From Thermodesulfovibrionales bacterium (GTDB taxonomy: Bacteria > Nitrospirota > Thermodesulfovibrionia > Thermodesulfovibrionales > UBA9159): a stretch of 47,261 nt of DNA. The stretch lies in the NCBI GenBank assembly GCA_035686305.1, contig DASRZP010000037.1, positions 1-47,261 of the forward strand. The letters run 5' to 3'. The notes under the pieces were generated by a model. The model was not told the DNA's origin and ran no database searches. It saw only the letters and a program-made list of their open reading frames with translations. Shown here in pieces: positions 24,831 through 34,842 of this stretch (its first letter is position 1; each line of letters opens with the position of its first letter). Made by a program: the position numbers and the translations under genes.

Positions 24831-26351
24831 TCAGGGCTGTCGGCATTCTCTCTTAATGCCGTCTAGAAGACTGCCGATTTGATCAGAGATCTGCTCCATC
24901 TCGTCGTAAATCTTCTCCGCCTTCTGCCTATCTCCACGGTTATAGTCCATAACCGCCTCCTTGGCCAGAGAGTGTATCCTTTCATGCGGAAGTCCTATGT
25001 TCTTGAAACTGACGAGGGTGCCGCACTGCTCTTTCCCCTCCCCGTCGTACCATGTGCCGAACCTGCAGGTATGGTGATTCGGAAGTTGAGACGGATCGAG
25101 CCTTGTGTCGCCGCTCAGACATGATCCGATCTTGTCCATGAATGTCCTATGGTCCGTCCTCGCAAGTTCGAGGATCAGCAATTCGCTGCCCTTCGTCTTG
25201 AAGCCGCCTGTGGCGTTCCTCAGTTCATCAGCCACGCCTGCCAGCTTATTGACCTCGTGCATGACGTCCTGGGAGATCTTTTCCATGTTCTTTGCTATGC
25301 CCGATGTCTTCTCGATATTCCTTGTAACCTCTTCGGATGCCGCAGACTGTTCATCCACTGCCGTTGCTATCTGCGTTATCTGGTCACGGACCTTCTGAAC
25401 CGCTGCCACGATCGACTGGAGCGAGTCACCAACATTCCTGATGTACTGAGTCGCTTTTGTCACTTCGTTCGAGGCCTCTTCCATGGACTTCGACGTCTGC
25501 TCAGACTCTCCCTGTACCGCGCCGATCTTCTCGGATATCTCTGCCGTCGCCTTGATCGTCCTCTCCGCAAGCTTCCTCACCTCGTCAGCAACAACAGCAA
25601 AGCCCCTTCCCTGCTCTCCTGCCCTCGCCGCCTCAATCGCCGCGTTCAAGGCTAGGAGGTTCGTCTGGTCCGCAATGTCCTTAATCACCGTTACGATGTC
25701 CCCGATCTCACCCACCCGGCCGTTCAGTTTCCCCACCATCGAGGCAAGTTCAACGGTGGATGTATAGACACTGTTCACCGTCTCCACAGCGCCGTCAGCA
25801 ACCTTGCTCCCCTCCGACGCCAGGTCCATCGCCTCAATGGACGTATCCGATGCTGTTGAGGCATTCTTCGCGATGTCCGTTATCGTTTGGCTCATCTCCT
25901 CGGAGGCTGTGGCGATCTGGGCAGCCTGCCCTGACTGCTCACGGGCGCCCTCTGCAGTCTTCTTCGTCCGCCTTCTGAGAATATCCACGGTCGATACGGC
26001 ATTATTTGCTGAGGCGAGGATGCCGTTTATCATATTGTCAAAGGTTCTGACCATCTTGCTCATATTCTGCGACAAAAGGCCTATTTCATCATCACTCTTG
26101 TAGTCTACGGTAGTACGGAGATCGCCGTTGGCAAGGCTCTCCACTTCCCTGTTCAGATCGGATAGGGGTTTTGCTATCTTGCGCTGGCTCGTTATCCAGA
26201 TGAATGCCAGGATGGCGAGATTCAGGAATACAAGGACAAGCTGTATCACCTTCAGGCTTCTCTGAAGCTGAGGGAAAACAATGATGACGCTGACCACGGT
26301 AAGGGTCAGCAGCACTGCCACCATCAGTCTCAGTTGACTCACAATCTTCAT
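24831..26351 (-). CDS. Methyl-accepting chemotaxis protein with C-terminal CZB (zinc-binding) domain
   Basis: This 506-residue receptor has two closely spaced membrane helices (about 8-26 and 37-54), so almost nothing is outside the membrane. HAMP (about 55-108) and the MCP signalling hairpin with [20 protein letters not shown] (226-245) follow. The C-terminal 110 residues form a chemoreceptor zinc-binding domain: His401, Cys429 ([13 protein letters not shown]), His456 and His460 are the likely Zn ligands. CZB receptors can sense zinc or oxidants such as hypochlorous acid from the cytoplasmic side. The gene follows cheW by 78 bases with a strong AGGAGGAG, and is probably in the same transcript. 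Confidence 0.92.
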
Positions 26352-26429: not shown

Positions 26430-26909
26430 TTAGTTATTTGTTGTAAATGTTGTCACCGTGCCAATCTCCTCATGCCCGAGGAGTTTGTCGATGTCGAGGA
26501 GGATAAGAAGCCTATCTTTGAGTTTTCCTACACCCTTAATAAATTCAGAGCCCGCTCCTCCGGTCATAGGAGGAGGAGGTTCGACCGTGTCTGAGTTAAG
26601 CCGTAATACCTCAGAGACCGAATCAACAATGAGGCCCACGGTTGTGCCGACATCAACGACCATGATCCGCGATTGTGAATCCGCGCTCTTCGCATCAAGC
26701 CCGAATTTCTTCCTGAGGTTTATGACGGGTATGACCTTGCCCCGGAGATTAATAACGCCTTCCACATAGCTCTGGGTATTCGGAACCGACGTAATATCAA
26801 CCATCCGGTTAATCTCCTGGACCTTCAGGATATCAATAGCATACTCTTCACCTACGAGCTTAAAGGTGACCAACTGCAAGATCTCCGAACTTACTGCCAA
26901 AGCGTCCAT
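26430..26909 (-). CDS. cheW: Chemotaxis coupling protein CheW
   Basis: This 159-residue single CheW (SH3-like) domain links receptors to CheA. Family features are LVTFKLVGEEYAIDILKVQEI (about 13-33), INLRGKVIPVINLR (about 52-65) and a GLIVDSVSEVL strand (about 91-101). A proline-rich PPPPMTGG loop interrupts the later part. It is followed by a chemoreceptor gene and preceded by a sigma-28-type promoter at 26973-27000. Together with the CheW domain in the CheW-CheZ fusion, this locus encodes two CheW modules plus the one in CheA. Confidence 0.93.
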   Translation of the reverse strand: MDALAVSSEILQLVTFKLVGEEYAIDILKVQEINRMVDITSVPNTQSYVEGVINLRGKVIPVINLRKKFGLDAKSADSQSRIMVVDVGTTVGLIVDSVSEVLRLNSDTVEPPPPMTGGAGSEFIKGVGKLKDRLLILLDIDKLLGHEEIGTVTTFTTNN

Positions 26910-27012: not shown

Positions 27013-28077
27013 CTAAACAGCGTTAATGATCTCTCCGGCCATCTCTTCAACAGAAAGGATCTTATCTGCTATACCGGCATCCACGACCGCCTTCGGCATG
27101 CCGTAAACAACGCAGGACTCCTCGTTCTGGGCAAAAATACGCCCCCCCGTCTTCTTCAGCGCCGTGAGCCCTTTCAACCCATCGTTCCCCATCCCCGTAA
27201 GGATCACGCCGAGGGACCTGCCTGGGAAATATTCCGCGACTGAAGACATCAGGGCATCCACAGACGGACGATAGATGAACTCCTCCTTCTCTTCCGAGAC
27301 ACTGATCACCGTCTCGATGCCTCTCCTCCTCGCCACCCTCATATGCCCACTGCCGGGAGCTATGAAGGCCACTCCCGCTTTCAGCGGCTCTCCATCCTCT
27401 GCCTCCTTGACGGTTATCTGGCTGAGTTGATTAAGCCTTTCGGCAAAGGGGCCGGTGAAGTTTGCCGGCATATGCTGGGCCACAACAACGGGGACAGGGA
27501 AGTCCTTTGGGAGTCTGGGAATGATCTCCTGAAGGGCACGGGGCCCTCCTGTCGAAGTGCCGATGGAGACGATGCTTATCCTACGTTCGCCGGTAGTCCT
27601 CACCTGCACTGGCTGGGAGACTTCGGCTGTCCTCGGCCTGTCCGATACCTTTGGAATTGCTCTTGTTGCCCTCCCCGGTATTCCCTTTCTTCCGAGATGT
27701 TTTACCTTTTCAATGAGTATTTCTTTCAGCTTCACAATGTTGATCGAGAGGTCCGAGAGGTTCTTTGGGATGAAGTCCACAGCCCCCAGATCAAGAGCAT
27801 CGAGCGTCACCTTTGCCCCTTCAGTGGTCAGGGAGCTGACCATAATCACAGGAAGGGGACTCGTCTCCATGATGTTCTTGAGGGCGGCGATGCCGTCCAT
27901 CCTCGGCATTTCCACATCCATGGTCACGATGTCCGGTTTCAGGCTCTTCACCTTTTCGATAGCCTCCATTCCGTCTCTCGCAGTCCCGATAATCGATATC
28001 TCGTGGTCCGACGACAGCATCGTGGAGAGGGCATTCCGCATAAAGGCAGAGTCATCGACAATAAGGACCTTTACCAT
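27013..28077 (-). CDS. cheB: Chemotaxis response regulator protein-glutamate methylesterase CheB
   Basis: This 354-residue protein removes methyl groups from (and deamidates) receptors for adaptation. The N-terminal receiver has the acidic pair Asp8/Asp9 and phosphorylation site Asp54 (TMDVEMPRMDG). A linker rich in Arg/Pro (about 130-165) leads to the methylesterase domain with the Ser-His-Asp triad in GTSTGGP (Ser), AQHMP (His) and GMGNDG (Asp). It starts at ATG 28077 with no visible Shine-Dalgarno; a perfect inverted repeat overlaps the start codon. It partners with cheR upstream. Confidence 0.95.
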   Translation of the reverse strand: MVKVLIVDDSAFMRNALSTMLSSDHEISIIGTARDGMEAIEKVKSLKPDIVTMDVEMPRMDGIAALKNIMETSPLPVIMVSSLTTEGAKVTLDALDLGAVDFIPKNLSDLSINIVKLKEILIEKVKHLGRKGIPGRATRAIPKVSDRPRTAEVSQPVQVRTTGERRISIVSIGTSTGGPRALQEIIPRLPKDFPVPVVVAQHMPANFTGPFAERLNQLSQITVKEAEDGEPLKAGVAFIAPGSGHMRVARRRGIETVISVSEEKEEFIYRPSVDALMSSVAEYFPGRSLGVILTGMGNDGLKGLTALKKTGGRIFAQNEESCVVYGMPKAVVDAGIADKILSVEEMAGEIINAV

Positions 28078-28180: not shown

Positions 28181-29377
28181 TTAAAACCCGAAGTCCTTCA
28201 AAAGGTCGTCGACATCAGACTGCGAAACTTGTTCGGGGTTGATCGCTTCCGCAGTCACTCCGTGCTCTATCTTGACGCCGAAGGTCGCTATCAGCTTCAC
28301 AAGCTCCTCCTCGATCTCGCTCACGAGCTTGATGACCTTCTTTATGGTCTGACCTGTCAGGTCCTGGAACGACTGGGTCGTCAGGATCTCGGTGAGATCA
28401 TCTTCGAGACTGTTCTTGAAGGTCTTCAGATAGGCAATCGCATCCTCAGGCTCCTTCAGTTTCCGTATCTGGGAGCTCAGTTCATCCATGCCGAGGGTGT
28501 ATTTTTCGACGATTCCCATCGTCTTATTTGCAGCATCCTCGGTCTTATCTATGACATACTTCAGCCTGTCGATGGCGCCCGGCATCTCAACATTCGCCAT
28601 GTCCTTGAGTCTCGGATCGATGGCCTCTTTGAAGCTCTTTATGGAGTCGTGCAATTTCCTCGTCACCCTGCCCACTTCGTTGAATATGCCGCTCTGTCCT
28701 TTTTTCAGGATATTTTCCATGGCATGATCGGCCTTTTCATAGTCACTGTTCCCAACAGCCTCTATGAAACTGACAAGGTCATCAAAGATCACATACCTCG
28801 GATCGCTCGAATCGATTCCCCTCTTCTCAAAAAAATCCCTGGCATCATGCAGCTCCTTTACTTTTATCTCTCCTGCCATGGTCTGGACGGTCTTGACAAC
28901 CTCGACCCTGTCGCTGCCGTCAGTCTCTTTCACGTCAATAACGACGTCCTCAAAGAGGCTCATGTCTTCTGATGGCAGGAGTTTCTTGGTATCGAGGAGC
29001 ACAACGAGTCTGTCCTCCAGCTTTGCGACACCCTCGATCTGCTCGACATTATCATTGAGGAACTTTTTCGGGTGCTCGATCGAAGATTCATCAATATTGA
29101 TAACACCCGTTATCCCGTCCACGAGTATGCCGAAGGTCATTCTGCCGCTCGCAACGACGATGATCTTGTTGCCCCTGTTCCCGTTGTCGCCAAGGTTGAC
29201 GAGCTTCTTGAGGTTGACGATCGGAATGACCGACCCCCTCAGGTTGGTGACTCCCTCGATATATTCCGGTGCCTGAGGCATTCTCGTTATGGCGGGCATG
29301 CTGACGATCTCCCGTACCTTCAGGATTGGTATCGTGTATTCGCTCGCATTGAGATGAAACCCTATATACTGCTCCAT
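28181..29377 (-). CDS. CheW-CheZ fusion protein (coupling domain plus CheY-P phosphatase domain)
   Basis: This 398-residue two-part chemotaxis protein begins with residues 1-140 as a full CheW domain (IGFHLNASEYTIPILKVREI; NLRGSVIPIVNLKKL; a later LLDTKKLL). Residues about 195-370 are a long helical CheZ domain containing SFQDLTGQTIKK; Asp339 and Gln343 in DLTGQ correspond to the E. coli CheZ catalytic pair Asp143/Gln147. The last residues SDVDDLLKDFGF match the CheZ C-terminal CheY-binding helix, joined by a flexible linker. The design would place CheY-P dephosphorylation at the receptor array. It starts behind AGGAGGAG, 11 bases after cheA. Confidence 0.85.
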   Translation of the reverse strand: MEQYIGFHLNASEYTIPILKVREIVSMPAITRMPQAPEYIEGVTNLRGSVIPIVNLKKLVNLGDNGNRGNKIIVVASGRMTFGILVDGITGVINIDESSIEHPKKFLNDNVEQIEGVAKLEDRLVVLLDTKKLLPSEDMSLFEDVVIDVKETDGSDRVEVVKTVQTMAGEIKVKELHDARDFFEKRGIDSSDPRYVIFDDLVSFIEAVGNSDYEKADHAMENILKKGQSGIFNEVGRVTRKLHDSIKSFKEAIDPRLKDMANVEMPGAIDRLKYVIDKTEDAANKTMGIVEKYTLGMDELSSQIRKLKEPEDAIAYLKTFKNSLEDDLTEILTTQSFQDLTGQTIKKVIKLVSEIEEELVKLIATFGVKIEHGVTAEAINPEQVSQSDVDDLLKDFGF

Positions 29378-29388
29378 GTCTCTCCTCC

Positions 29389-31152
29389 TTACAGGTTTTT
29401 TATTGCTCCGCTAACACTCCTCGCTATGCTCGCAAGATCGAGAATAAGGACTACTTTCCCTTCACCCGTTATCGTTGCGCCGAGGATATGAGAAGATGCC
29501 GTTTCAAGTCCGTCTATACTCTTTATCACAACCTCTTCTTGTCCGAGGAGCTCATCGACGGCAAGGCAGAACTGACTCTCCCCAATGGAAACGACCGTAG
29601 CGTAACGATATTCGGCGTCGGAGCCGGCAGGGTTGCCGAGGAGAGAGGACAATTCGAACAGGGGATTGACTCTCCCCCGGATGACAAGGACCTTCTGCCC
29701 CACAACATCATCGATCTCGCTCCTCGACACCTTCCGGATCTCCTCGACGGGTGCAAGGGGAATCGCGTAGTTCGACGTGCCGACCCGCACCATGAGGGCC
29801 TGCACGATCGCAAGGGTAAGAGGGATACTGATCCTGAAGGTGGATCCGGCATCCTTCTTCGATGCCACCTCGACATAGCCATTGAGCTTTGAAATGTTCG
29901 TCTTGACCACATCCATCCCGACGCCTCGGCCGCTCAGTTCTGTGGCGACATCGGACGTGGAAAACCCTGGCAGAAATATGAGGTTTATCGCAGACTCATC
30001 GGTCATCCTCTCGGCCTCTTCCCCGCTGATCAAAGCCTTTTCAAGGGCCTTCTTCTTCACCCTGTCTACATCGATACCCTTGCCGTCGTCAGAGACCTCG
30101 ATGACAATCTGGTTTCCCTTCTGGCAGGCGCTGATCGTGATCGTTCCCTTTTCAGGTTTTCCCTTGGCCAGTCTCACCTCTGTTGATTCGAGGCCGTGGT
30201 CTATCGCATTCCTGATGATATGCACCATGGGATCGCCTATCTGCTCAATGACCGTCTTGTCGACTTCTGTCTCTTCCCCGGAGATCAGGAGCTCAACCTG
30301 CTTGCCGAGGGGACCTGCAATGTCTCTTACGAGGCGGGGGAATTTGCCGAAGACCTTTTTGATCGGCTGCATCCTCATCCGCATGACGGCGAGCTGCATA
30401 TCAGACGTTACAAGATCAAGGAAGTTCACGGTATCCGTGAGGTTCTCGACGTGGACATCATCGGAGAATTTCGTCTCGAGGTAGTTCACAATATTGAGGA
30501 GTCTGTTACGGACCATGACGACCTCTCCCGTCAGGTCCATAACGTTGTCGATCCTGTTGATATCGACCCTCAGCGTCTGGAGCGATTCCTTTCGCTCAGC
30601 CACCGTCTTCTCACCACCAGTTTCGGCGGCCGGTTGCGGGGCCACCCCTTTCTTCGTTTCCACCGGGACGTCGACAAGCTCTCTCCCTTTCTCTTTTTCG
30701 ACTTCAGGGAGTATCTTCGCTGATCCGGGGGGATCAATGGTCTCAGGATGTCCGCCTGGCTCCTGGGCCTTCTTCAGAGCCTCTTCCAGTTCGTTAACCA
30801 GCGGTACCGTATCTTCCTCTATGCCGTCCTTCAGCTTGATATGCTGGATGAGGAGTCGCAGCATGTCTACACTCTTGAGGATCACATCCATGAGGTACCG
30901 CGACAGAGATATCTCGTTTTCCCTCAACTTTTTCATGATATTCTCTGCGCTGTGGGCAACATCGACGATATGCTGAAACCCGAGGAACCCGGCAGCACCC
31001 TTGAGCGTATGCATGCTCCTGAATATGTCATTGAGCATCTCTTTGTCGTACCCTTTTGTCTCAAACTCGACAAAGAGGGGATCTATCTTGTCGAGGGACT
31101 CTTCTGCCTCAGTGATAAAGTCGGCTATGATTTCTTCCATTTCATCCGGCAT
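29389..31152 (-). CDS. cheA: Chemotaxis histidine kinase CheA
   Basis: This 587-residue kinase autophosphorylates and passes phosphate to CheY/CheB. Domains are an Hpt/P1 (1-125, phospho-site His48 in MHTLKGAAGFLG), a Pro/Glu/Lys-rich linker (about 130-190), the P3 dimer helices (about 190-265), the P4 ATPase (N box with IIRNAIDHGLE, DDGKGI at 355-360, GRGVGMD at 408-414) and a P5 CheW-like domain (about 450-587). No folded P2 (CheY/CheB docking) domain is visible, so the protein is shorter than E. coli CheA (654). It follows cheY after 85 bases and precedes the CheW-CheZ gene. Confidence 0.95.
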   Translation of the reverse strand: MPDEMEEIIADFITEAEESLDKIDPLFVEFETKGYDKEMLNDIFRSMHTLKGAAGFLGFQHIVDVAHSAENIMKKLRENEISLSRYLMDVILKSVDMLRLLIQHIKLKDGIEEDTVPLVNELEEALKKAQEPGGHPETIDPPGSAKILPEVEKEKGRELVDVPVETKKGVAPQPAAETGGEKTVAERKESLQTLRVDINRIDNVMDLTGEVVMVRNRLLNIVNYLETKFSDDVHVENLTDTVNFLDLVTSDMQLAVMRMRMQPIKKVFGKFPRLVRDIAGPLGKQVELLISGEETEVDKTVIEQIGDPMVHIIRNAIDHGLESTEVRLAKGKPEKGTITISACQKGNQIVIEVSDDGKGIDVDRVKKKALEKALISGEEAERMTDESAINLIFLPGFSTSDVATELSGRGVGMDVVKTNISKLNGYVEVASKKDAGSTFRISIPLTLAIVQALMVRVGTSNYAIPLAPVEEIRKVSRSEIDDVVGQKVLVIRGRVNPLFELSSLLGNPAGSDAEYRYATVVSIGESQFCLAVDELLGQEEVVIKSIDGLETASSHILGATITGEGKVVLILDLASIARSVSGAIKNL

Positions 31153-31237: not shown

Positions 31238-31627
31238 TTATTTCCCCAGTTTCTCGAAGATCTTGTCCATCTTCTCCTTTAAGACCTCAGCGGTAAAGGG
31301 TTTGACGATATAATTGTTCACCCCTGCCTTGATAGCCTCGACGACCTTCTCTTTTTCGGCCTCGGCGGTGACCATGAGGACGGGGAGAGCCTTTAATTCA
31401 GGATCACTCCGTACCTTCTTGAGCAGTTCGAGTCCGTCCATGTTCGGCATGTTCCAGTCGGACACGACAAAGCCGAAGGCATCGTTCTTGAGCTTTGTAT
31501 AAGCCTGGAGACCGTCTTCCGCCTCTTCAATATTCTCGTACCCTAACTGTTTGAGGATGTTCTTCACGATCCTTCTCATCGTCGAAAAATCATCAATGAC
31601 AAGGATCTTCATTTTGAGATCAGGCAT
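31238..31627 (-). CDS. cheY: Chemotaxis response regulator CheY
   Basis: This 129-residue receiver-only protein has the same length as E. coli CheY. The phospho-site is Asp57 ([12 protein letters not shown]), acidic residues are Asp12/Asp13, the conserved Thr is in MVTAEA and the Lys in VKPFT. The SDWNMP sequence is the CheY hallmark. I start at ATG 31627, 7 bases after AAGGAGGT; it overlaps the preceding regulator gene by 8 bases. CheY-P should bind the N-terminal peptide of FliM encoded in the same window and be dephosphorylated by the CheZ domain at 28181-29377. Confidence 0.94.
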
Positions 31628-32012
31628 GGGAAGCACCTCCTTTTTCAAACAAGCTTTTCAGGATCTCTTTAATGTTTTGCGTAACCATATCTGCAGTGAC
31701 CGGTTTTACGAGATACCGATTTGTACCCGCTGCAAAGGCCCGCTCCCGTTCTTCGGGGTCTGCCTCTGTCGTGACCATGAGAATGGGAACGTCCTGCCAA
31801 TGGGGATCGGCCCTGAGGGACTTCACCAGCTCAATGCCGTCCATATACGGCATGTTTAGATCGGTTATGATCATATTGACGGCATTCGTCGCCAGTTTTT
31901 CAAGGGCATCAAGTCCATTTTCTGCAAAGACCATCTCGAACCCCTTTGACTTCAGATAGATACCGAGCAGCTTCCTTGTCGTCTGGCAGTCATCAACGAT
32001 CATGATCTTCAT
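31620..32012 (-). CDS. Single-domain response regulator (second CheY-like protein)
   Basis: This 130-residue receiver has Asp7/Asp8, phospho-site Asp51 ([11 protein letters not shown]), Thr in [12 protein letters not shown] and Lys in VKPVTADM. It lacks an output domain and differs from canonical CheY in the DLNMP motif. It is translated just before cheY (8-base overlap) and after cheR. It may act as a phosphate sink or have a separate target; the role is not readable from sequence. Confidence 0.9.
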
Positions 32013-32121: not shown

Positions 32122-32937
32122 TTATATCCTCTGGTAAACGATCACTTTGTTGATAATGGTGGGCTTGAATGCCCGGGTCAGGTTATGGAGGCTCTCGGAC
32201 GCGCCGATGAAGAGAAAGCCGCCCGGCCTCAGGCTGTCGTATAACAGTGAAATCACCTTCTGCTTTGCCTTGTCGTCAAAGTAGATGAGAACATTCCGGC
32301 AGAATATGATGTCAAGGTTTCTCATGGACGGCAGTCTCTTTTCATCCGTAAGATTTATGTTCATGAACTTGACGGAATTCCTTATCGATGGTTCGAGTTC
32401 GTAGGACTGGCCATTCGCCTTGAAATATTTCTTGAGATAGGGCTCAGGCACATTTCTCACCGAGTAAGAGCCATAGACAGCCTTCCTGGCAGACATGAGA
32501 ACCCCGTCGCTGATATCAGAAGCAAAGATCTCTGCCCTGACGTCGGCTCTCTTCTCCCTGAGGAGGAGGGTAATGGTGTACGGCTCCTCTCCTGTCGAAC
32601 ATGCGGCAGACCATATCTGCAATCCCTTCGTACCCTTGTATTTCAGCACCTCCGGGATGACGACCTCGGTGAAGATATCGAATTGTTGTTGCTCCCTGAA
32701 GAAGAATGTCTCGTTCGTCGTTATCGCATCGTAGAGTCTCGCAAGCTCATCACCGCAGTTGTTATAGCGGATGCGATAGAGGTAGTCCTCAAAACTGTTG
32801 AGGTTGTTCTCTTGAACCCTTTTCAACAACCTGTTTTCAAGGAGATACTTCTTCATGTCGGGGACGTAAATGCCGCTTTTTTCATAGATGAAATCCCGCA
32901 GTTGCCTGAATGTCGTATCCTGAAGAACAATGTTCAT
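32122..32937 (-). CDS. cheR: Chemotaxis protein methyltransferase CheR
   Basis: This 271-residue SAM-dependent methyltransferase methylates receptor glutamates for adaptation. The N-terminal helical domain (1-75) ends in TTNETFFFRE (73-82). The SAM site is WSAACSTGEEPYT (109-121), then ASDIS, and DIIFCRNVLIYFD followed by LRPGGFLFIGASESL. No tetratricopeptide or extra domain is attached. The ribosome site is weak (AAGGG). It lies 36 bases after the HEAT-repeat gene and is presumably in the sigma-28-driven transcript. Confidence 0.95.
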   Translation of the reverse strand: MNIVLQDTTFRQLRDFIYEKSGIYVPDMKKYLLENRLLKRVQENNLNSFEDYLYRIRYNNCGDELARLYDAITTNETFFFREQQQFDIFTEVVIPEVLKYKGTKGLQIWSAACSTGEEPYTITLLLREKRADVRAEIFASDISDGVLMSARKAVYGSYSVRNVPEPYLKKYFKANGQSYELEPSIRNSVKFMNINLTDEKRLPSMRNLDIIFCRNVLIYFDDKAKQKVISLLYDSLRPGGFLFIGASESLHNLTRAFKPTIINKVIVYQRI

Positions 32938-32973: not shown

Positions 32974-34842
32974 CTAATCCCCCGCATACCGCAACCCTTG
33001 AATCGCCTCACAGGCCTTTTCTCGAACGGCTTCCACGCCGTGGTTTGTCAATGAACTGAGGATGCTGAACGCCTCTCTCCCGCCGATGCGGGATATGGCA
33101 GCGATGGCAGAGAGGACAACGGGTAGGCTTCCGTCTTCGACCATGGGGATGAGATTATTGATCATATCTTTCCTGAAGGACTCCCCTAAGGCATTGACTG
33201 CGGACATCCTTACCCACTGGTCATCATCGGCGAGAGCCGACTTGATCTCATCATGGTAGCAGTTGTGCTCGCTCATCGCCGCGATCGCCGCCTTCCTCAC
33301 CTCAGGTTCGGCGGCACGCATCGCCCAGGCGAGTCGGCCGCAAACCCTTTCGTCCTGTATCTTCCCAAGTCCGGTGAGAGCAGCCACCCTGACCGAAAGG
33401 TCTCTATCTTCCAATAATGAGAGAAGGATATCAACATCCTCTGAGCATTTCCCGATAACCTCCTTGACAAACCCGTCAAATTCATGAAGATGGCAAGAGA
33501 GGGCCGCCGGATCTATCATGAGGAGTGCCCTGACCGCCTCTTCTTTTACGTCCGCGTACCTTTCTGCAAGCAGGAGTTTCAGAATGGGTTCAAAGGAAGC
33601 CCTGTCACCAATCCTGCCGAGTGCGGCCACTGCCATCCTCCTGACGTGTCCATCATAATCATCGATAGCATCGACGAGCGTATCCTTTATCTCTTTCTCA
33701 CCTATCTCGAGGAGGGCCCTCATGCTTGCCCTCCTCACGTCCCTCACGTCTCCTTCAAAGAACCGTATAAGGTGAGGTACTGCTTCAGTGCACCTCAAAT
33801 CCCCTATCACCTCGATCGCTATGGCCTTTCCCCGGTATTTGAGCGACGGGTTGTTCAGAACAGCGATGAGGGATTCTGAACAGCCAAAGCTCCGAAGGGC
33901 TTCCTTGATATGGAGCAACCTCTCTTCATTCTCAGGCTCAGAGGGATCGAGGGAGCCGGCCATGTCGATCAGGGGATAGATGGCCCTCGTTTCCTGCAGC
34001 GCTACGAGACCTTTGAGGGCGATGCGTTTATCCTCCCAGTCTCCGGACGTGAACATTTCAAGGAGCATTTCCGGTCCCCCGGGCACGGAAGGAGTGACCC
34101 CTATCTGGATCAGACTCTTGAGCGTTGCCTCTTTTTCAAATCCTTCTGCCTTTGTCATGTGGTTGATGAGGGCATCGGCTGACCTTGTCATTCCTATCTT
34201 GCCTAGGGTCTCTATTGCAGCATATCTCAGGGCATCTGAAGGACTTTCGAGCAGCTTCTCGATGGACTCAAGGGACGACTCATGATACATCGCTGCCAGC
34301 GATTCTATGGCTGAGAAACATACCCATTCATCATCCCCCAGTGCGGCGATGAGTTGCGGCAAAGCGTCCCGATATTGGAGAACTCCGATCACCTTTGCAG
34401 CAGATGCCCGGACATTCGGATTGGGGTCATGTTGGAGAAGGTTGGCGATCTCAGGGCAATAATCACACTCCCTGATTTCACCGATAAGATCGAGGGCAAA
34501 TTTACGCACGTCAGGGTCCTTGTCCCTGAGGAAGGAGACAAAGAGGGGGACGGCAGGTGCGCCGATCTCCTTCAGGATGATTGTTGCCGTGTTCCTGAGG
34601 AATGCATCCTCCCTGAGGAGGGGCAGGACCATGTACGCCGTGACCTCGCCTCCCAGAGATATGAGAGAACGCATGGCAGCATCCTGGACTCCAGCGTTTT
34701 CATCCTTCAAGGCCTTGATCAAGGGATAAATCGCTCTTTCGTCACTTTTCGCCAGCGCCTCTGCAGCGGACCTCCTTTTTGACGCGTTGTGATGAGAAAG
34801 GTCCCTAATGAGTCGCACGAGTCTTTTGGATTGAATCATCAT
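32974..34842 (-). CDS. HEAT-repeat protein in the chemotaxis operon
   Basis: This 622-residue protein is made almost wholly of HEAT/PBS-lyase-type helical repeats of about 30-38 residues, from residue about 8 to the end (for example 'DERAIYPLIKALKDENAGVQ', 'DPDVRKFALDLIGEI', 'DDEWVCFSAIESLAAM'). There is no signal peptide and no membrane helix, so it is cytoplasmic. Such superhelices bind proteins. It is the first gene after a near-perfect sigma-28 promoter and leads into cheR, which suggests a role in chemotaxis or the motor; no function is established. Two ATGs are adjacent (34842 and 34839); GAGGAGA spacing favours the second. Confidence 0.85.
   Translation of the reverse strand: MMIQSKRLVRLIRDLSHHNASKRRSAAEALAKSDERAIYPLIKALKDENAGVQDAAMRSLISLGGEVTAYMVLPLLREDAFLRNTATIILKEIGAPAVPLFVSFLRDKDPDVRKFALDLIGEIRECDYCPEIANLLQHDPNPNVRASAAKVIGVLQYRDALPQLIAALGDDEWVCFSAIESLAAMYHESSLESIEKLLESPSDALRYAAIETLGKIGMTRSADALINHMTKAEGFEKEATLKSLIQIGVTPSVPGGPEMLLEMFTSGDWEDKRIALKGLVALQETRAIYPLIDMAGSLDPSEPENEERLLHIKEALRSFGCSESLIAVLNNPSLKYRGKAIAIEVIGDLRCTEAVPHLIRFFEGDVRDVRRASMRALLEIGEKEIKDTLVDAIDDYDGHVRRMAVAALGRIGDRASFEPILKLLLAERYADVKEEAVRALLMIDPAALSCHLHEFDGFVKEVIGKCSEDVDILLSLLEDRDLSVRVAALTGLGKIQDERVCGRLAWAMRAAEPEVRKAAIAAMSEHNCYHDEIKSALADDDQWVRMSAVNALGESFRKDMINNLIPMVEDGSLPVVLSAIAAISRIGGREAFSILSSLTNHGVEAVREKACEAIQGLRYAGD

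Follow-up and report, generated by a model that had tools for sequence, protein, structure and literature searches.

The window (the whole 47,261-nucleotide stretch analysed here, from a Thermodesulfovibrionales bacterium) contains a chemotaxis and flagellar gene cluster with the transcriptional order flhA-flhF-flhG-fliA-(HEAT repeat)-cheR-RR-cheY-cheA-cheWZ-cheB-cheW-mcp-mcp. The gene denoted cheWZ encodes a single protein in which a CheW domain is followed by a CheZ domain. The genes and signals that surround it are as follows.

26430-26909, minus strand: stand-alone cheW (PF01584, 1.1e-40)
27013-28077, minus strand: cheB (Pfam and NCBIfam)
28181-29377, minus strand: cheW-cheZ fusion gene encoding 398 aa, with the ATG at 29377 and the TAA at 28183-28181
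29381-29390, minus strand: Shine-Dalgarno sequence AAGGAGGAGA, which shares bases with the TAA stop codon of cheA (29391-29389)
29389-31152, minus strand: cheA, with Hpt, dimerisation, ATPase and CheW domains
31238-31627, minus strand: cheY, E. coli-like (NCBIfam PRK10610 CheY, 198.1 bits against a cut-off of 189)
31620-32012, minus strand: second single-domain response regulator of CheY type, sharing 8 bases with cheY
32122-32937, minus strand: cheR (Pfam and NCBIfam)

The fusion gene starts 11 bases past cheA, within the che-flagellar operon. The stop codon of cheA and the strong ribosome-binding site of the fusion, TAAGGAGGAGAGACATG, overlap; therefore, co-translation of the fusion with cheA is plausible. 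Promoter and terminator scans of the operon gave scores no better than those of shuffled sequences. The gene neighbours are similar in the relatives, where cheA usually lies directly before or after the fusion. The product of cheY (31238-31627) is the likely substrate of the CheZ domain, judging from its sequence. The operon also encodes a separate CheW; the fusion is thus one more protein with a CheW domain and not the only adaptor.

Other features of the neighborhood were also recorded. A 622-aa HEAT-repeat protein (32974-34842 of the window) is encoded between cheR and fliA. A homologue of this protein adjoins cheR in six relatives (L033-L036, L041, L061), and a second HEAT protein adjoins the second che cluster of the genome (L174). 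Adjoining cheW is a HAMP-MCP (24831-26351 of the window) whose C-terminal domain is of the chemoreceptor zinc-binding (CZB) type. Paired single-domain CheY-like regulators resembling those at 31238-32012 also occur in four relatives (L033, L034, L036, L061).

The initial annotation had proposed a CheW domain at residues 1-140, expected a CheZ match at residues 195-398, and read the protein as a CheY-P phosphatase tethered to the chemoreceptor array. Both domains were recovered by profile searches, with the following layout.

28970-29371, minus strand: CheW domain, residues 3-136 (PF01584, E 9.3e-37; same coordinates in the genome-level search)
28688-28969, minus strand: linker region, residues 137-230 (AlphaFold: a beta-rich stretch followed by two short helices, at low confidence with block means of about 49-77)
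28184-28687, minus strand: CheZ domain, residues 231-398 (PF04344, E 3e-37 for the whole protein; pieces 28451-28687 and 28184-28426)
28349-28363, minus strand: catalytic motif DLTGQ with Asp339 and Gln343 (aligned to Asp143 and Gln147 of E. coli CheZ)
28184-28222, minus strand: putative C-terminal CheY-docking helix QSDVDDLLKDFGF (fits the C-terminal end of CheZ models)

The CheW domain scores 126.2 bits against a Pfam cut-off of 23.5 (PF01584) and the CheZ domain 128.9 bits against 30.7, the latter in two stretches over residues 231-398 (PF04344). The CheW and CheZ equivalogs are the top two NCBIfam matches to the fusion, both below their strict full-length cut-offs. The Pfam scan of the fusion protein gave no match to Response_reg, a trait of CheV, and no match to CheR, a trait of CheW-CheRlike. 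Residues 326-363 align to residues 130-167 of E. coli CheZ by phmmer (solved structure 1kmi), and the numbering first given to the DLTGQ residues, Asp339 and Gln343, agrees with the E. coli catalytic pair. The CheZ-type C-terminal helix read from the sequence (VDDLLKDFGF) is also present and aligns to the last part of the CheZ models.

An AlphaFold model of the 398-aa fusion has a mean pLDDT of 71 and a pTM of 0.38. Residues 1-140 form a CheW fold predicted with confidence; a linker of low prediction quality, a long helical hairpin (255-306/311-366) and a C-terminal helix follow. The CheW part compares well with CheW structures, with a VIA Z of 20.7 to 2qdl and 19.5 to E. coli 8c5v. For its CheZ part, the single-chain model gives a VIA Z of 8.6 to E. 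coli CheZ (1kmi) at 4% identity, in a register unlike that of the sequence alignment, and many unrelated helical hairpins score equally. Because this value is no better than that of unrelated hairpins, the fold comparison says little about CheZ. The CheZ assignment stands on sequence. A four-helix CheZ bundle would require a dimer of the predicted hairpin.

The CheZ half was compared residue by residue between 38 fusions and 100 CheZs that have no CheW. Every sequence of both sets has the catalytic Asp and Gln (38/38 and 100/100). Toward the C-terminus, Q386 and L393 are invariant in both sets, and V389, D390, G397 and F398 are nearly so. The hairpin tip marks the plainest structural departure from E. 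coli CheZ. In the clade of the window (13 sequences) it spans 17 residues between the reference columns; the median for CheZs that have no CheW is 38. The apical hairpin of E. coli CheZ is the binding site of CheA-short (PMC7750401). The E. coli segment RWDDWFADP, including the aromatics used to bind CheA-short, aligns to a gap in the window CheZ. The docking tip for CheA-short is thus absent from the fusion in the alignment to E. coli CheZ; the tip is a trait of enteric CheZs and not of the whole family. Its loss is not universal among the fusions either, about half of which have a longer, medium-length tip. Tip loss is thus a trait at the level of a clade and may postdate the fusion event. 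CheZs of alpha- and deltaproteobacteria are reportedly without CheA-short binding sequences (PMC7750401). Since these have no fused CheW, tip loss and the fused CheW are not strictly linked.

The conserved C-terminal helix also suits a different role, in which the CheZ part is mainly a docking site for CheY at the array that substitutes for a missing P2 domain of CheA, with phosphatase activity being secondary. A profile search recognised P2 neither in this CheA nor in the genome. The gap between the Hpt and dimerisation domains is 92 residues here and 93-113 residues in five close fusion-bearing relatives, compared with 230-280 residues in gammaproteobacterial CheAs that adjoin a stand-alone CheZ. 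However, the gap is also short (126-136 residues) in Nitrospirota with a stand-alone CheZ; therefore, a short CheA gap does not track the fusion and P2 replacement was rejected as its explanation. P2 is also missing from about half of all CheAs (PMC10542144), and an invariant catalytic pair is unexpected in a mere dock. A role limited mainly to docking is therefore unlikely.

The CheW half bears more directly on the proposed array tether. In a tree, the fused CheW domain clusters with stand-alone CheWs and apart from the CheW domains of CheA (support 100). The fusions carry the CheW-type residues N45, P34 and V92; at these positions most CheAs show Ile, a gap and Gln, respectively. The fused domain is CheW-type and not CheA-type by these sequence features. 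Residues E23, G42 and R47, which correspond to E38, G57 and R62 of E. coli CheW, are invariant in the 38 fusions; the CheA and stand-alone CheW rows likewise show no variation at the E38 and R62 positions and almost none at G57, so these matches are not specific. We infer that the fused CheW binds receptors and CheA from its fold and from residues of which CheA retains several too. Alternatively, the fused CheW may no longer bind the array and may be a leftover or an aid to dimerisation, which would make the protein a soluble phosphatase. The separate CheW of the operon means that array assembly may not need the fused one, and two Desulfobacterota proteins near the fusions (L124, L129) have no CheW, indicating that CheZ can exist without it. 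This loss of array binding seems quite improbable, as the fused domain retains both the CheW-type residues and the invariant E23, G42 and R47 in 38 sequences, and is itself retained across the class. The tethered reading fits the CheW-type domain, the non-specific E38/G57/R62 matches and the lost hairpin tip.

The first reading had found no other CheY-P phosphatase (CheC, CheX or FliY) in the window, and this extends to the genome. The draft assembly (3.23 Mb, 97.66% complete) has one CheZ, the fusion, in a genome-wide profile search. Neither the CheC family (PF04509) nor CheX (PF13690) had a match in this draft. Of the five CheW domains in the genome, two belong to the second che cluster on another contig, in which CheZ was not found. 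By profile search, the fusion is the only recognised CheY-P phosphatase of the draft genome, whose 97.66% completeness leaves room for a second. These counts also bear on whether the fusion is a structural part of the array with an inactive CheZ domain. There is precedent for such a part in CheW-CheRlike of Treponema denticola, an array-ordering protein whose CheW-fused chemotaxis enzyme domain has lost its catalytic residues (PMC7666581). No other phosphatase was recognised in the draft genome, and Asp339 and Gln343 are invariant in 38/38 fusions; both points argue against an inactive CheZ domain, which we regard as very unlikely.

A survey of the architecture across genomes, as the initial annotation had called for, found the fusion in about half of the genomes sampled from the class. 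The closest named relatives are Nitrospirota MAGs, with Thermodesulfovibrionales bacterium DeMMO2_13 at 70% identity and others at 59-66%; the homologue in Candidatus Magnetomicrobium cryptolimnococcus has 39% identity. Thermodesulfovibrio is a cultured member of the class. In a class sample of 200 genomes, a match to the fusion profile at E <= 1e-55 was found in 108 genomes and 53 of 108 genera. All but a handful of the 108 matches cover both domains within one frame. The sample includes five more genomes of the source's own family, all without a match, and some class genomes have two CheW-CheZ genes (G160, G290, G1008, G1024). The architecture is a lineage trait, typical of a Nitrospirota class as a whole and not a one-genome oddity. 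Identically laid-out homologues in about 100 independent genomes, some of them single-contig assemblies (for example G014, G079, G312), refute the joining of two genes by an assembly or frameshift artefact.

Elsewhere in the phylum, family f22 encodes remote CheW-CheZ proteins, and family f29 a stand-alone CheZ of the ordinary kind, about 220 aa long. The 297 sampled Desulfobacterota genomes yielded three CheW-CheZ proteins among the long CheZ frames that were examined. Two of these are nested inside the Nitrospirota clade, which suggests transfer. Most of the other long Desulfobacterota CheZs were rejected as fusions; they carry a different N-terminal extension or an insert, without CheW. Ten long-frame CheZs were examined from Pseudomonadota (299 genomes), and none of them was a CheW-CheZ. 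The fusions of family f22 and two further sequences (L061, L149) form long branches outside the main groups in trees from a short search. These trees are compatible with either a single or a multiple origin of the fusion.

Several unusual CheZs were observed in the same survey. The two Desulfobacterota CheZs without CheW (L124 and L129, 270-291 aa) branch inside a fusion group and have possibly lost the CheW domain after transfer. Another candidate for a CheZ without CheW, L039, was rejected as a truncation at a contig end. Thirteen deltaproteobacterial, mostly Desulfobacterota, CheZs (L049, L050, L090, L118-L123, L125-L128) have an N-terminal extension of about 230-310 residues, in which no CheW or confident Pfam domain was found, with a weak Hpt-like match in L050. 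The CheA adjoining L049, L050 and L090 also has a long N-terminal extension. In L134-L138 and L152, an insert of roughly 200-280 residues splits CheZ between the hairpin halves; the inserts that were scanned had no confident Pfam match. A divergent Nitrospirae CheW-CheZ (L061, 5923-7083) has a weak HAMP-like stretch between its domains (E 2.6e-4, below the cut-off).

The fusion is best explained as an array-tethered CheY-P phosphatase, a reading of location and activity from sequence to which we assign a probability of about 0.8. The fused CheW domain would occupy a CheW place in the lattice of receptors, CheA and CheW. Carried on a linker of about 95 residues, the CheZ domain would dock CheY-P by its C-terminal helix, and the aspartyl phosphate would be hydrolysed using Asp339 and Gln343, as their exact conservation suggests. 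The phosphatase would thereby be kept beside the kinase at a ratio fixed by array assembly, and CheA-short would not be needed for its placement. CheZ dimerisation of the E. coli kind, should it occur, would additionally let each phosphatase unit link two CheW domains. In E. coli, a phosphatase located at the array results in a uniform CheY-P level at the motors (discussed in PMC7750401). The covalent link could give the same uniformity at the motors together with a fixed number of phosphatases per array. Since the phosphatase belongs to a lattice subunit, it is conceivable that the receptor state controls it directly. The conformational change that lowers kinase activity could then also raise phosphatase activity, making the array a two-way kinase/phosphatase switch; we consider this addition doubtful.

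The tethered phosphatase can be compared with several known systems. E. coli CheZ with CheA-short has the same catalytic Asp/Gln pair, C-terminal CheY-docking helix and helical hairpin as the fusion, whose array placement is proposed here. In E. coli, however, CheA-short recruits CheZ, a separate protein, by way of the apical hairpin, whereas the fusion has a covalent CheW and, in the clade of the window, a shortened hairpin. The CheZ of Azorhizobium caulinodans has no CheA-short site and is polar nonetheless (PMC7750401), and the fusion of the window clade likewise lacks this site. The A. caulinodans protein has no CheW domain and localizes by its own N-terminal helices, whereas the fusion has CheW.

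CheV also joins a CheW adaptor to an output-modulating domain and has a proposed role in terminating signals at the array (PMC4742279). Its receiver domain, unlike the CheZ domain, acts as a phosphate sink or in adaptation and is not a phosphatase. CheV lies beside a stand-alone CheZ in Nitrospira-like families (f29, f32) and was not found in the source genome, which hinted that CheV and the fusion exclude each other. This was rejected since the two co-occur in families f3 and f7 (396 genomes searched); several relatives have both. CheW-CheRlike of T. denticola and other Spirochaetia similarly combines CheW with a chemotaxis enzyme domain, is conserved within its lineage and is located in the array (PMC7666581). 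Its CheR-like domain has lost catalytic residues, whereas those of the fusion are intact and belong to a phosphatase family. In the CheA-CheC/CheX proteins of Leptospirae, a CheY-P phosphatase domain is covalently part of the core signalling complex (PMC10542144), as is proposed here for the fusion. That phosphatase is of an unrelated family and is carried on the kinase, whereas the fusion has CheZ on CheW.

No mention of a CheW-CheZ fusion was found in the open-access literature searched; most subscription papers lie outside this scope and domain databases may list the architecture. Array proteins fused to output-modulating domains are well known (CheV, CheW-CheRlike and CheA-CheC/CheX), and CheW-CheZ adds a variant to this theme. 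The position of the CheY-P phosphatase sets how evenly the signal reaches the motors, and CheA-short is the E. coli solution. A class of Nitrospirota appears to solve the same placement by fusing the phosphatase to the CheW scaffold, with the off-switch probably wired into the array. This offers a natural test of whether array placement, fixed stoichiometry or direct receptor control is what matters. In addition, a protein annotated as CheW or CheZ alone can be both, which affects the counts of adaptors and phosphatases in genome surveys.
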